Assembly: GCF_000620085.1 (NCBI RefSeq)
Contig: NZ_JHVJ01000022.1
Coordinates: 62,001-126,000, forward strand
Source of the DNA: Marinobacterium jannaschii DSM 6295
GTDB taxonomy: Bacteria; Pseudomonadota; Gammaproteobacteria; Pseudomonadales; Balneatricaceae
Direction: 5' to 3'
Length of the DNA stretch: 64,000 nucleotides
Within the stretch, counting starts at the first letter, position 1. Every line of letters begins with the position of its first letter. Both the position numbers and the translations under genes were made by a program. This document shows, in pieces, positions 54,907 to 64,000 of this stretch. The notes under the pieces were generated by a model. It ran no database searches and was not told the DNA's origin. It saw nothing but the letters and a program-made list of their open reading frames with translations.

Positions 54907-55905
54907 ATGTTTAATGATAAATCTATACTCATCACCGGTGGCACCGGGTCATTCGGTAAGTGTTACACCGAAACGCTTCTGAAGCACTACTCACCGAGAA
55001 AAATCATCATCTACTCTCGGGACGAGCTCAAGCAGTTCGAGATGCAGCAGGAGTTCAACGCCCCCTGCATGCGCTACTTTATCGGCGACGTGCGGGACAA
55101 AGAGCGCCTTACGCAAGCGATGCAGGGCGTAGACTACGTTATTCACGCTGCGGCCCTGAAACAAGTCCCCGCCGCTGAATACAATCCGATGGAGTGCATC
55201 AAGACCAACATCCATGGCGCTGAGAACGTGATCCATGCAGCCCTGGCCAACGATGTCGAAAAGGTCATTGCGCTCTCCACCGACAAGGCAGCCAATCCGA
55301 TCAACCTTTACGGAGCGACCAAGCTGGCCTCCGACAAACTGTTCGTCGCGGCTAACAATATGTCCGGGGGGCATCCTACCTGCTTCAGCGTGGTGCGCTA
55401 TGGCAATGTCGTCGGTTCACGTGGCTCTGTAGTGCCCTTCTTCCGCAAACTGATCAATGAAGGAGCTGAATCCCTACCGATTACAGACCCACGCATGACG
55501 CGCTTCTGGATCACGCTGCAACAAGGTGTAGATTTCGTGCTGAAGAATTTTGCCCGCATGCAGGGCGGCGAGATTTTCGTCCCCAAGATTCCTTCTGTGA
55601 AGATCACCGATCTCGCCGAGGCAATGGCACCGGGCATCGCGCATGAAATCGTAGGGATAAGGCCTGGTGAAAAACTGGACGAAATTATGTGCCCGTCAGA
55701 TGATTCACATCTGACGTTAGAGTTTGACGATCACTATGTGATACGCCCGACAATAACCTTTACCAGCAGAAGCAATAATTTCGCCACTAATAATCTTGGA
55801 GAAACAGGCAGTCCGGTCAAACAGGGCTTCGAATACAACTCTGGCAATAATGCTGACTTCCTGTCACCACAAGAGATCACTTCTTTTAACCAGTCAGCGG
55901 AGTAG
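54907..55905 (+). CDS. pseB: UDP-N-acetylglucosamine 4,6-dehydratase (inverting) PseB
   Basis: A 332-residue short-chain dehydrogenase/reductase enzyme that starts pseudaminic acid synthesis by dehydrating and epimerising UDP-GlcNAc. NAD motif [11 protein letters not shown], the hexameric-dehydratase features [16 protein letters not shown] and [15 protein letters not shown] (catalytic Asp/Lys and Tyr-x3-Lys) and [15 protein letters not shown] are all present. It is the first gene of the operon and has a sigma-28 promoter. Codon use is GC-rich up to about 55690 and AT-richer in the last ~70 residues, a shift that continues through the rest of the cluster. Confidence 0.95.
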
Positions 55906-55912
55906 AACTAAG

Positions 55913-57073
55913 ATGTTTTCTTATGGGCGCCAGCATATTACAGCTGAAGATATCGATGCCGTAGTAGAGGTCTTAAGCTCAAGCTACCTGACGCAAGGAC
56001 CCGCTACCGAGCGCTTTGAAAGTGCATTAGCCAGCTACTGTGGGGCATCCTATTGCGCAAGCGTAAACAGTGCGACCTCCGCCCTTCATCTTGCTTGCCT
56101 TGCTCTAGGTGTAGGGCCGGGTGACTATGTGTGGACATCTCCCATCTCTTTCGTAGCATCGGCGAATTGTGCACTCTATTGCGGAGCAAGTATTGATTTC
56201 GTAGATATCAATGAAAACACCTACAACCTGTGCCCGGATAGACTCGAGGAAAAACTCTCTATCGCCAAAGCAAACGGAAAATTACCAAAAGTAGTAATTC
56301 CGGTACATTTTGGCGGCCTGCCCTGCGATCTGAAAAAAATAAGGGAGCTTGCCGATTCCTACGGATTTCATATTATTGAAGATGCCGCTCACGGAATCGG
56401 AGCAAGTTACTTCAACTCTAAAATCGGTGACTGTAGGTATAGCGATATAACGGTGTTCAGCTTCCATCCGGTGAAAGTCATTACTTCCGCGGAGGGCGGT
56501 GCTATAACAACGACTAGCGAGAAACTGTTTAAAAAGGTTTTAGAGCTAAGGTCACACGGCATAACCCGGGATCCCGGAAAATTAATTCATGACGCCTCAC
56601 CCTGGTATTATGAGCAACAAAACCTGGGATTTAATTACAGGATGTCTGATATCCATGCGGCTCTGGGAGAAAGCCAGCTGAAACGCTTAGACAGCTATGT
56701 AAACAGCCGAAACGAGCTAGCCAATCTATACAACGCCCAGTTTGACTCCAGCGTGATTAGCACACAATTTGTAGATACAGGCTATAAATCTGCTTATCAC
56801 CTATTTTCAATCAAACTCACTACTATTCCCGACAAACGAAAATACGTTTTCCAAAAACTGAAAGAAGCTGGTGTCGGCGTAAACGTACACTACATCCCTA
56901 TACACTTACAGCCCTATTTCAGGAAATTAGGTTTCAAGAAAGGGGACTTCCCTGTGGCTGAAGCATACTATAATAGCTGCATCACTTTACCCCTTCATCC
57001 TCAACTATCAAAAGAAGACCAAAGCAGGGTATGCCGCTACCTGAAGGACGCTATTAATGAAGCTGCTCTCTAA
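55913..57073 (+). CDS. pseC: UDP-4-amino-4,6-dideoxy-N-acetyl-L-altrosamine transaminase PseC
   Basis: A 386-residue DegT-family PLP aminotransferase for the second pseudaminic acid step. The PLP lysine is K188 in FSFHPVKVITSAEGGAI, with EDAAHGIGASY before it and NYRMSDIHAALGESQL after. The ATG at 55913 (MFSYGRQHI) has GGAG upstream and gives the normal length; the frame extending back into pseB is not translated as such. It overlaps pseH by 17 bp. Confidence 0.95.
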   Translation: MFSYGRQHITAEDIDAVVEVLSSSYLTQGPATERFESALASYCGASYCASVNSATSALHLACLALGVGPGDYVWTSPISFVASANCALYCGASIDFVDINENTYNLCPDRLEEKLSIAKANGKLPKVVIPVHFGGLPCDLKKIRELADSYGFHIIEDAAHGIGASYFNSKIGDCRYSDITVFSFHPVKVITSAEGGAITTTSEKLFKKVLELRSHGITRDPGKLIHDASPWYYEQQNLGFNYRMSDIHAALGESQLKRLDSYVNSRNELANLYNAQFDSSVISTQFVDTGYKSAYHLFSIKLTTIPDKRKYVFQKLKEAGVGVNVHYIPIHLQPYFRKLGFKKGDFPVAEAYYNSCITLPLHPQLSKEDQSRVCRYLKDAINEAAL

Positions 57074-57593
57074 ACAGATATATATTAGGCCATTGGGACT
57101 GGATGATGTTTCCGATGAGTACGTATCATGGCTTAACGACCCCAAGGTAAACAGGTTTTTAGAAGTACGCCATCAAACCCATAGCCGTGAATCTTGCGTC
57201 GAGTTTTTAGCGTCCGTGGACGCAGATCAAAACAGCCACATATTTGGTATTTTTTCCCTCTCCTCCGACAAACACATCGGAAATATTAAGGTTGGCTTCA
57301 TTGATAGATACGAAAGCGGCCAGGTAAGCCTTTTGATTGGTGATAGAGACTATTGGGGAAAGGGTATAGGTAGTGAAGCGATTCACCTCATCTCTAAATA
57401 CTCATTCAGACACCTAGAATTAACGCGCCTTGAAGCCGGCTGCTACGAAGAAAATACGGGGTCGCTAAGAGCCTTTCTGAAAAATGGCTATACGGTCGAA
57501 GGCTTCTTTCGGAAAAGTGTAGAGCTGGACGGTAAAAGACAAGGGTGTTTTTGGCTTTCCCTGCTAAAGGAGGAATTTGGTGACACCAGATAA
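57057..57593 (+). CDS. pseH: UDP-4-amino-sugar N-acetyltransferase PseH (GNAT family)
   Basis: A 178-residue GNAT acetyltransferase: RPLGLDDVSDEYVSWLNDP at the start, acetyl-CoA-binding region GDRDYWGKGIGSEAIHLI, and LEAGCYEENTGSLRAFLKNGY. PseH N-acetylates the 4-amino group of the PseC product. Overlaps with pseC before and the aldo/keto reductase gene after show a tight operon. Confidence 0.9.
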   Translation: MKLLSKQIYIRPLGLDDVSDEYVSWLNDPKVNRFLEVRHQTHSRESCVEFLASVDADQNSHIFGIFSLSSDKHIGNIKVGFIDRYESGQVSLLIGDRDYWGKGIGSEAIHLISKYSFRHLELTRLEAGCYEENTGSLRAFLKNGYTVEGFFRKSVELDGKRQGCFWLSLLKEEFGDTR

Positions 57594-62864: not shown

Positions 62865-62877
62865 GAAGGCCAATACT

Positions 62878-63927
62878 ATGACAGAATTTTCTATTAATGG
62901 TCGGCAGATAGGGGGAAGTCATCCCCCTTATGTTATTGCGGAACTATCAGCAAATCATAACGGCGACCTGCAAAGGGCCCTGGATACCATAGCCATGGCT
63001 GCCAAGTGCGGTGCAGACGCCATTAAGATTCAGAGCTACACGGCCGACTCTATGACCATTGACTCGAGTCAGCCCGATTTTATGGTTGAGGGTGGGCTTT
63101 GGGACGGCTTCAAGCTCTATGATCTGTACAAATGGGCTCAAACACCATACGAGTGGCATAAGCCTATCTTTGACTTTGCGGCAAAACAGCAGATAACTAT
63201 CTTCTCAACACCATTTGATGAAGCAGCAGTAGACATGCTTGAGGACTTAAATGCCCCTGCCTACAAAATTGCTTCGTTCGAATCTACCGACTTACCGCTA
63301 ATCAGTTATGCGGCAAGTACCGGTAAGCCGCTTATCATATCCACAGGGATGGCCAACTTAGAGGAAATACAAGAAGCCATCTCTACAGCCCGTGAAAGCG
63401 GCTGTAATGAGCTTGCAATTCTTCACTGTGTTAGCGGTTATCCAAGCCCCGTCAATCAAGCTAATTTAAGTACCATTAGCGATATGAGTAGCCGATTCGA
63501 TACTGTTATCGGATTATCAGACCACACTATCGGAAACCTGACCGCAATCGCCGCTACCGCGCTCGGAGCTTCAATTATAGAAAAGCACTTCACGCTAAGC
63601 AGGTCAGATAAAGGGCCCGATAGTGAATTTTCACTGGAGCCTGATGAGCTTTCTCAATTAGTACAACAATCCAGGCAGGCCTTTGATGCCCTGGGTCAGC
63701 CAGGATATGAGCTTAAACCCGCCGAGAATTCGAGCATCAAATTCAGACGGTCGCTATATTTCGTCAAAGACCTCAAAGCTGGCGATACAATTACCGAGGC
63801 AGCGATTCGCAGGATTCGTCCAGGATACGGGATTGCACCTAAATACCTGAAAGAGCTTATAGGGCGCAAAGTAGCGAGGGATATTGCCTACGGGACATCA
63901 GTTCAGTGGGAAGATATAGAACCATGA
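62878..63927 (+). CDS. pseI: Pseudaminic acid synthase PseI
   Basis: A 349-residue NeuB-family synthase condensing the PseG product with phosphoenolpyruvate. NeuB motifs are PPYVIAELSANHNGDLQRAL, GADAIKIQSYTADSMT, STPFDEAAVDMLED, ILHCVSGYPSP and GLSDHTIGNLTAIAA, and the C-terminal SAF (antifreeze-like) domain starts near residue 290 (RRSLYFVKDLKAGDTI). Details such as IKIQSYTADSMTID favour PseI over NeuB or LegI. Its stop overlaps the start of the next gene (ATGA). Confidence 0.94.
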   Translation: MTEFSINGRQIGGSHPPYVIAELSANHNGDLQRALDTIAMAAKCGADAIKIQSYTADSMTIDSSQPDFMVEGGLWDGFKLYDLYKWAQTPYEWHKPIFDFAAKQQITIFSTPFDEAAVDMLEDLNAPAYKIASFESTDLPLISYAASTGKPLIISTGMANLEEIQEAISTARESGCNELAILHCVSGYPSPVNQANLSTISDMSSRFDTVIGLSDHTIGNLTAIAATALGASIIEKHFTLSRSDKGPDSEFSLEPDELSQLVQQSRQAFDALGQPGYELKPAENSSIKFRRSLYFVKDLKAGDTITEAAIRRIRPGYGIAPKYLKELIGRKVARDIAYGTSVQWEDIEP

Positions 63928-64000
63928 TCACCTCAGAAAACATAGCGATTATCGTTGCTCATCCAGATGATGAGGTGCTTGGCTGCGGCGGAACCATTGC
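63924..64000 (+). CDS. PIG-L family (LmbE-like) deacetylase, partial
   Basis: The first 25 residues, MITSENIAIIVAHPDDEVLG and then CGGTI, carry the zinc motif AHPDDE of PIG-L/LmbE N-deacetylases; the gene is cut by the right edge. In this operon it may remove an acetyl group from a pseudaminic acid intermediate, giving a free amine for one of the formyltransferases (inference). It overlaps the pseI stop by ATGA. Confidence 0.85.
   Translation, partial: MITSENIAIIVAHPDDEVLGCGGTI

Follow-up and report, generated by a model that had tools for sequence, protein, structure and literature searches.

A pseudaminic acid operon of Marinobacterium jannaschii predicted to make an N-formylated sugar with three nitrogens

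The last part of a 64,000-nucleotide stretch of Marinobacterium jannaschii DSM 6295, hereafter the window (bases 62001-126000 of contig C16, NZ_JHVJ01000022.1, in a draft genome of 5.18 Mb), holds a pseudaminic acid (Pse) operon that brings known modules together in a new way: a pse core, an aldo/keto reductase (AKR) and a class III aminotransferase (AT3) with an SpsF-type synthetase, and a predicted formyl exchange set. We propose that it yields a pseudaminic acid activated with CMP and containing three nitrogens, most likely an N-formylated 8-amino-8-deoxy derivative, for flagellin glycosylation. We lean only slightly towards this explanation, and our confidence in it was lowered because the profile model for PseH gives no support for the division between acetyltransferases on which part of it depends.

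A preliminary description of this DNA had recognized pseB, pseC, pseG and pseI, and all four proteins score above the curated NCBIfam equivalog cut-offs. The accompanying genes it had listed, an AKR, an SpsF/class III aminotransferase fusion (675 residues), two formyltransferase-like genes and a PIG-L deacetylase, are likewise present according to Pfam and PDB matches. The single overlapping operon it had described was also borne out: ten reading frames follow each other on one strand from position 54907, PseB through PIG-L, tight or overlapping, with spacings of +7, -17, -17, -4, -23, -41, -11, +13 and -4 bases, in that order.

In the proposed route, PseB and PseC would generate the UDP-4-amino sugar, as is established for these families. 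FT1, the first of the two short formyltransferase-fold proteins, may then formylate its amine in place of PseH, giving a 7-N-formyl group in the product, while at some stage PIG-L would strip the original N-acetyl group and the second such protein, FT2, formylate the freed amine, giving a 5-N-formyl group. PseG and PseI would then lead to the nine-carbon sugar, the C8 hydroxyl of which would be oxidized to a ketone by the AKR and converted to an amine by the AT3 half of the fusion. A GNAT acyltransferase may acylate this amine, the SpsF half would activate the sugar with CMP (the best supported of the roles proposed for AKR, AT3, GNAT and SpsF), and attachment to flagellin would be the task of a Maf protein. 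The predicted residue masses are 288.096 for the 5,7-diformyl sugar lacking the 8-amine, 287.112 for the form that has it and 329.122 for the form with 8-N-acetyl.

The main comparison was done with 57 loci (labelled with L) holding PseB, PseC and PseI, after removal of the near-copies L103, L112, L064, L084 and L079. Class loci account for 29 of them: 28, the window included, came from a PseI search of 369 genomes (39 placements above the chosen cut-off, 12 lower ones being excluded) and one, L047, from an AT3 search. The complete class list has 41 loci, the other 12 being cut by a contig end or without a core gene. The remaining 28 of the 57 come from an AT3-selected scan of the best 80 of 587 relatives, so the frequency of AT3 among them is meaningless. 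Co-occurrence counts are not independent, as the loci share descent, and Fisher p values calculated from them assume more independence than there is. Each local profile model was derived from 1 to 14 sequences, some of them from loci later counted, with score limits set by us. The comparison divides the operon into parts that can be swapped: FT2/PIG-L, FT1, AKR/AT3 and SpsF.

The reductase/aminotransferase module and the SpsF synthetase

The AKR and AT3 are a conserved pair. AT3 is accompanied by an AKR or a Gfo/Idh oxidoreductase in 32 of 35 operons, and such a gene is found in one (L206) of the 22 operons that lack AT3. AKR (19 cases) and Gfo/Idh (6 cases) never occur together in the AT3-selected genome set, and both are present in a single class locus, L043. 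When distance was considered, an AKR, Gfo/Idh or short-chain dehydrogenase/reductase (SDR) gene was located within 4.5 kb of AT3 near PseI in 8/8 class, 40/53 genome and 8/14 viral loci; in L092 and a few other loci an AKR is present, but farther away. SpsF-AT3 fusions with 66-72% identity to that of the window were found in five other genomes of the 369 searched, each time with the AKR adjacent and pse genes nearby. Other arrangements of the same parts exist: a single frame of 1029 residues joins Gfo/Idh, SpsF and AT3 (L098:8252-11338), and L206 carries an SpsF-AKR fusion followed by an adh_short_C2 SDR within a pse operon. The filling of one slot by unrelated oxidoreductases, together with the SpsF-AT3, SpsF-AKR and Gfo/Idh-SpsF-AT3 fusions, suggests that three steps may take place on one substrate, at the stage of the free or the CMP-linked acid. 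The AKR has the motifs DTAxxYG and LLLH, and AT3 an invariant lysine in an FGK/FSK motif, which we take to be the pyridoxal phosphate lysine. The best matches of the AT3 profile are glutamate-1-semialdehyde aminomutases; further down appear aminopentol and C-6' aminotransferases, presumably acting at methyl ketones or exocyclic carbons, which is what a reaction at C8 of Pse would call for.

With respect to activation of the sugar, SpsF is present in 34 of the 57 operons and a NeuA-type PseF in 23, with no operon having both or neither; in the class loci alone the figures are 10 vs 19 (n=29). This mutual exclusion argues for SpsF as a functional replacement of PseF, and the best supported prediction is that the SpsF half of the fusion replaces it as CMP-sugar synthetase, even though it scores only 30.4 bits with the PseF model (cut-off 205.7). 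The absence of a stand-alone PseF noted in the preliminary description holds for all of the operon that the contig contains, the enzyme being apparently replaced rather than missing. The best match to the PseF model in the genome, and the only one elsewhere covering most of the model, is on contig C7 (152.5 bits, below the cut-off), inside a separate nonulosonic acid cluster. This second cluster of the genome (C7:268000-287999) is equipped with a NeuB, a NeuA-type synthetase, an SDR and a PseC-like aminotransferase of its own.

There are precedents for such a synthetase. B. subtilis requires SpsF to transfer legionaminic acid onto its spore surface, and the protein has been assigned to CMP activation, although complementation of the spsF mutant was unsuccessful (PMC7439481), and an SpsF-AKR protein of Vibrio B9-25K2 was proposed as a substitute for NeuA (PMC7371886). 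Common to these two and to the window is an SpsF-type cytidylyltransferase with an assignment as CMP-synthetase or NeuA replacement; fusion to an aminotransferase is found in the window, and the available parts of both reports mention none.

Candidate position of the third nitrogen

The nearest biochemical precedent for the AKR step is the pair EpaA (CTP_transf_3 plus AKR) and EpaB (an SDR) of A. baumannii, which converts Pse5Ac7Ac into 8-epi-Pse5Ac7Ac (PMC12053666), that is, into the C8 epimer; the pse operon of L206 has an EpaAB-like arrangement. As in EpaA/EpaB, CTP_transf_3 and AKR are found in one operon of the window, encoded by neighbouring genes that overlap without being fused, but no SDR (adh_short_C2) partner could be identified among the proteins of the window operon, which has AT3 instead. 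Because AT3 takes the place of the second dehydrogenase of this type of C8 epimerization, amination at C8 would be, by analogy, the simplest reading of AKR plus AT3. The idea that reductase and aminotransferase install a further amino group, already put forward in the preliminary description, gains from their joint occurrence and from this C8 precedent. A sugar of the kind predicted is known in the O-antigen of Flexibacter maritimus, an 8-amino-3,5,7,8,9-pentadeoxynonulosonic acid of manno configuration, with C8 undetermined and a tentative absolute configuration (PMC3210612). A 16S pattern search for Tenacibaculum maritimum gave no match, and the O-antigen genes are not named in the available passages of papers on it.

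Several observations weigh against the proposed C8 amination. No AKR, Gfo/Idh or SDR lies within 4.5 kb of AT3 in 13/53 genome and 6/14 viral PseI loci. PseC was not detected in 15 of 16 viral loci with PseI, PseB and AT3, L057 giving a weak match only, nor in 2 of 30 genome loci with the same three genes, and 24 further genome loci with AT3 and PseI have neither PseB nor PseC; AT3 is thus not always adding a third amine to Pse. The AKR tree places the EpaA-type AKR of L206 together with two further AKRs of the window's own genome and that of L147 (support 89/81), outside the main body of AKRs from AT3 operons. The same tree gave no clean clade of AT3-operon AKRs.

These data bear on two alternatives. 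AT3 could be a second aminotransferase acting at another carbon, e.g. C4 in either the nucleotide sugar or the acid, with the AKR as a ketoreductase and not as the C8 oxidant. AKRs commonly work as reductases, AT3 may act as the aminotransferase following PseB in the viral loci without a PseC match, and the placement of the L206 AKR points in the same direction; we consider this nonetheless unlikely, given that PseC is also present in the 35 AT3-containing pse operons (a set chosen for PseC) and that an SpsF-AKR/SDR pair acts at C8 (PMC12053666). The other alternative, which we judge quite improbable, is an ordinary formyl variant, in which N-formyl groups are the only novelty and AKR and AT3 epimerize C8 or introduce some other small change, with no nitrogen added. 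EpaA and EpaB indeed yield just an epimer (PMC12053666), and operons with FT1/FT2/PIG-L lacking AKR/AT3 are known (L248, L251, L027). Such a variant fits poorly with AT3 being a class III aminotransferase that retains its invariant lysine and is fused to the activating enzyme, and with the presence of a third acyltransferase, the GNAT, which tracks AT3.

The C8 amination favoured here can be compared with data from Aeromonas, where pseF in glycosylation islands of subgroups IA-IE is flanked by an AKR and a class III aminotransferase (PMC7874193). The view of the preliminary description that the logic of known pathways accounts for the core and no more was in this respect too strong, since such arrangements were described in 2021, as gene lists. 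In group I, pseB, pseC, an 'alpha/keto reductase', pseF and a class III aminotransferase follow each other beside flagellar genes, with pseG and pseI next in IA-IC, and subgroup IE, like the window, has a deacetylase. The window shows this order with an additional GNAT, with SpsF as pseF and with SpsF fused to AT3. In the available part of the report, the reductase and the aminotransferase are listed without a role, and its main text nowhere uses the word 'formyl' (PMC7874193). Two of our own Aeromonas loci, L115 (A. rivipollensis) and L113 (A. cavernicola), have an SpsF-type synthetase, as the window does, but SpsF and AT3 are separate genes in both.

Strains of Aeromonas groups I and III are reported to carry a single sugar, A. 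hydrophila AH-1 being given as an example, and 29 of the 31 A. hydrophila strains listed in these groups belong to IA or IB, both with AKR and aminotransferase (PMC7874193). The AH-1 flagellin glycan has a mass of 403 Da, its ion being reported as m/z 404.4; its ions 342.4, 355.4 and 373.2 are one unit off those of a Pse sugar, other ions being common to both, and the top formula of the authors, C19H32O9, did not account for 25 Da (PMC4691044). In group II, the strain A. piscicola AH-3 has a sugar of 376 Da (PMC7874193). This latter mass would be compatible with two nitrogens and that of AH-1 with three, although the connection of AKR/AT3 with AH-1 goes through the group-level listing of strains. 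An odd residue mass requires an odd number of nitrogens. Enumeration of the 403 Da with an acyl list of our own making gave 25 combinations that fit, four of them a two-nitrogen core plus a nitrogen-bearing substituent; three-nitrogen formulas at this mass include C16H25N3O9 (403.159) and C17H29N3O8 (403.196), and the arithmetic therefore supports an odd nitrogen count, not a structure.

In L128 and L136 an SDR follows AT3 (with Pfam support for the L128 gene); these and similar Bacteroidota/Ignavibacteria loci (L128:7029-13166, L136:9094-13637) combine SpsF, AT3, SDR and a PseI/NeuB-like synthase without PseB or PseC, the L136 set having in addition a HAD hydrolase, and possibly represent another amino-nonulosonic acid pathway. 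The IMG/VR contigs L062, L069 and L083 carry PseB, AKR, AT3 and SpsF (with PseI in L069 and L083) as well as portal, head or terminase genes of phages, so phages carry the AKR/AT3/SpsF sugar module. Among named phages, a search with AT3 gave 13 records, 8 of them unannotated, labelled as Listeria or Staphylococcus phage; with the SpsF-AKR protein of L206 the five matches were weak, none reaching 80% coverage.

Formyltransferase-fold proteins, the deacetylase and the GNAT

FT2 is found with PIG-L in all eight FT2 operons of the 57-locus set, PIG-L being present in 3 of the 49 loci without FT2. A separate FT2-first search of 398 genomes of the phylum added seven loci, six with PseB and PseC (L254 being without them), and all seven have PIG-L and PseI. 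This coincidence in 15/15 loci supports FT2 and PIG-L as a predicted pair for exchange of acetyl for formyl at the second nitrogen. The distribution of FT1 is different: it occurs together with a PseH-like domain in only one (L027) of seven FT1 loci, PseH is present in 37 of the 50 loci without FT1, and in the FT2-first loci FT1 (two loci) and PseH (five loci) never coincide. Gene order is in agreement with this, since L248 has the order of the window minus the AKR/AT3 insertion (PseB-PseC-PseF-PseG-FT1-FT2-PseI-PIGL), while L252, from the window's taxonomic order, reads PseG-PseH-FT2-PseI-PIGL, i.e. with PseH where L248 has FT1. Judging from position and distribution, FT1 most likely occupies the PseH slot and stands in for that enzyme, leading to a 7-N-formyl group, a job separate from that of FT2 and PIG-L. 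The N-acetyl/N-formyl exchange proposed in the preliminary description is hence upheld for FT2 and the deacetylase, FT1 having a different predicted role.

The structural models of FT1 and FT2 (mean pLDDT 92.8 and 86.5) both have the formyltransferase fold. In Foldseek searches FT1 matched best PDB 1zgh and then ArnA, and FT2 matched 1zgh (TM 0.88/0.87), with WbkC and VioF among the matches. The usual catalytic set of sugar N-formyltransferases is Asn-His-Asp, and the histidine and aspartate are invariant in the alignments of FT1 (n=8) and FT2 (n=8).

Some data speak against formyl transfer as proposed. The asparagine, two residues before the histidine, is replaced by valine in 8/8 FT1, and by cysteine in 6/8 and valine in 2/8 FT2. 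Valine is likewise present in 1zgh, while VioF and WbkC have asparagine. Both proteins are nearer to 1zgh, a structure-only entry, than to PseJ (PDB 6ci2), which presumably acts in pseudaminic acid synthesis. The exclusion between PseH and FT1 also has its exception in L027, where one open frame fuses a PseH-like domain to FT1 (L027:9128-10357). PseJ and FT1 are both short formyltransferases and align over residues 5-167 of the 216 of FT1, but the similarity is weak (E 0.00066 with a single sequence, 2.4e-9 with a profile); a reading of FT1 as a plain PseJ orthologue found no support, 1zgh being nearer in sequence and fold. The replaced asparagine, shared with the nearest solved relative and not with VioF or WbkC, could indicate that FT1 and FT2 are other one-carbon transferases or binding partners, the nitrogens then bearing other groups. 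We give this a low probability in view of the invariant histidine and aspartate, the match of the predicted folds to sugar N-formyltransferases, the association of FT2 with PIG-L and the location of FT1 in the PseH slot. Formylation by both proteins is the prediction we retain.

FT2 and PIG-L were also observed in the IMG/VR loci L065, L066, L067 and L071, accompanied by AT3, SpsF, PseB, PseI and AKR or Gfo/Idh; PseC and PseG were not detected in these loci, and L065 and L066 additionally carry phage portal and major head genes.

The label pseH that had been given to the GNAT gene at 57057-57593 could not be confirmed: the protein reaches 43.7 bits with the PseH model (cut-off 93.1) and sits between PseC and the AKR, the common place of PseH being after PseG. 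Its type is found in 16/35 pse operons with AT3 vs 0/22 without, and 15 of those 16 additionally carry PseH or FT1. Position, co-occurrence with AT3 and this presence of PseH or FT1 argue that it is probably the acyltransferase of the AKR/AT3 module, acting on the added amine, rather than PseH. Two results weaken this assignment. Just 10 of the 16 GNATs are labelled as adjoining an AKR or Gfo/Idh, and in L042 and L044 the PseH model scores the GNAT on the AKR side higher (46.6 and 50.2) than the gene in the PseH slot (40.0 and 30.8). The PseH-slot genes of L042, L044 and L052 (75.0) are also below the cut-off, so the model does not separate both kinds. The location of the gene and the company it keeps led us to drop PseH as the first reading of the GNAT, the model itself lending no weight to the other assignment.

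Genomic setting and implications

The features of the region are listed in Table 1. The G+C content of the operon genes is 0.42-0.52, vs 0.55 for bases 1-54000 of the window. Looking beyond the 64 kb, as the preliminary description had advised, gave the end of the PIG-L gene followed by the start of an IS4-family transposase, and contig C16 stops 1,110 bases past the window.

Table 1. Genes of the predicted pseudaminic acid operon and the adjacent flagellar gene (positions in the window)
Gene product	Position	Strand	Evidence and remarks
FliS, flagellar export chaperone	54330..54815	-	Pfam FliS 123.7 bits; divergent neighbour just upstream of operon
PseB, UDP-GlcNAc 4,6-dehydratase (inverting)	54907..55905	+	TIGR03589 559.5 bits, equivalog cut-off 407.75
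PseC, C4 aminotransferase	55913..57073	+	TIGR03588 532.4 bits, cut-off 423.5; start ATG
GNAT acyltransferase (predicted substrate: amine installed by AKR/AT3)	57057..57593	+	PseH model 43.7 bits, cut-off 93.1
Aldo/keto reductase (AKR), predicted C8 oxidoreductase	57577..58473	+	Pfam 100 bits; start TTG 57577 or GTG 57580
SpsF (CTP_transf_3) half of fusion, predicted CMP-nonulosonic acid synthetase	58470..59189 (border approximate)	+	Pfam 108.3 bits; PDB 6oew 128.8 bits
Class III aminotransferase (AT3) half of fusion, predicted to aminate the AKR-made ketone	59190..60497	+	Pfam Aminotran_3 126.8 bits
PseG, UDP-sugar hydrolase	60475..61593	+	TIGR03590 264.4 bits, cut-off 153.55
FT1, short formyltransferase-fold protein, predicted 4-N-formyltransferase (product: 7-N-formyl)	61553..62203	+	Formyl_trans_N 27.2 bits
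FT2, short formyltransferase-fold protein, predicted to formylate the freed amine	62193..62864	+	PDB 1zgh 178.3 bits
PseI, pseudaminic acid synthase	62878..63927	+	TIGR03586 494.3 bits, cut-off 340.25
PIG-L N-deacetylase	63924..64000 (start only inside window; gene end 64601)	+	Pfam PIG-L 98.1 bits

The sole PF01973 (Maf-type) match of the genome lies near the start of contig C7 and is followed by FliD, FlaG and flagellin (L232, C7:1-15000). C7 begins with DNA that is repeated in the genome, a frame of which weakly matches the end of an IS4 transposase model (17.6 bits, cut-off 115; no Pfam match); this repeat also opens C16 and C9 and occurs in C27, and the insertion sequence start at the end of C16 recurs at one end of C1 and C22 and inside C34. 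As both repeats sit at several contigs, a join between the end of C16 and C7 is not unique; it would possibly set the operon in a flagellin locus, with Maf on one side and FliS on the other. The matching gene set of a Colwellia metagenome-assembled genome (L111) adjoins a flagellin gene.

This Colwellia locus is the nearest whole set to emerge from the gene-neighbourhood search that had been suggested, with the order PseB-PseC-AKR-SpsF-AT3-PseG-FT1-FT2-PseI-PIGL and without the GNAT; the extra genes are found as well in other related pse clusters. After its operon come an N-acetyl sugar amidotransferase (WbuX, above cut-off), a glutamine amidotransferase and a HisF-like gene (L111:17236-19843), and in L026 a HisH-type gene follows FT1 (L026:10742-11371), which suggests acetamidino variants in both loci.

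Taken together, the genes could constitute a route to a 5,7,8-triamino pseudaminic acid, in which the AKR and the SpsF-coupled AT3 provide the C8 amine and the formyltransferase-fold proteins and the deacetylase the N-formyl groups at C5 and C7, with AKR/AT3 explaining the odd-mass sugar of AH-1 and giving a lead on the genes behind the 8-amino sugar in Flexibacter maritimus. As a joint claim this is tentative, and we rate its chances at somewhat less than even. Among the papers listed by the open-access literature search, within their available parts, there was no assignment of C8 amination to these genes, nor of the formyl pairing. If the proposal is true, it would provide genes for 8-amino nonulosonic acids, which are known chemically and have no assigned pathway in the available parts of the literature searched, and the puzzle of the 403 Da glycan of AH-1 would become testable. 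It would also offer a rule for reading pse operons, by which a feature of the sugar would be predicted from each of three things: the occupant of the PseF slot, that of the PseH slot, and FT2 with PIG-L.

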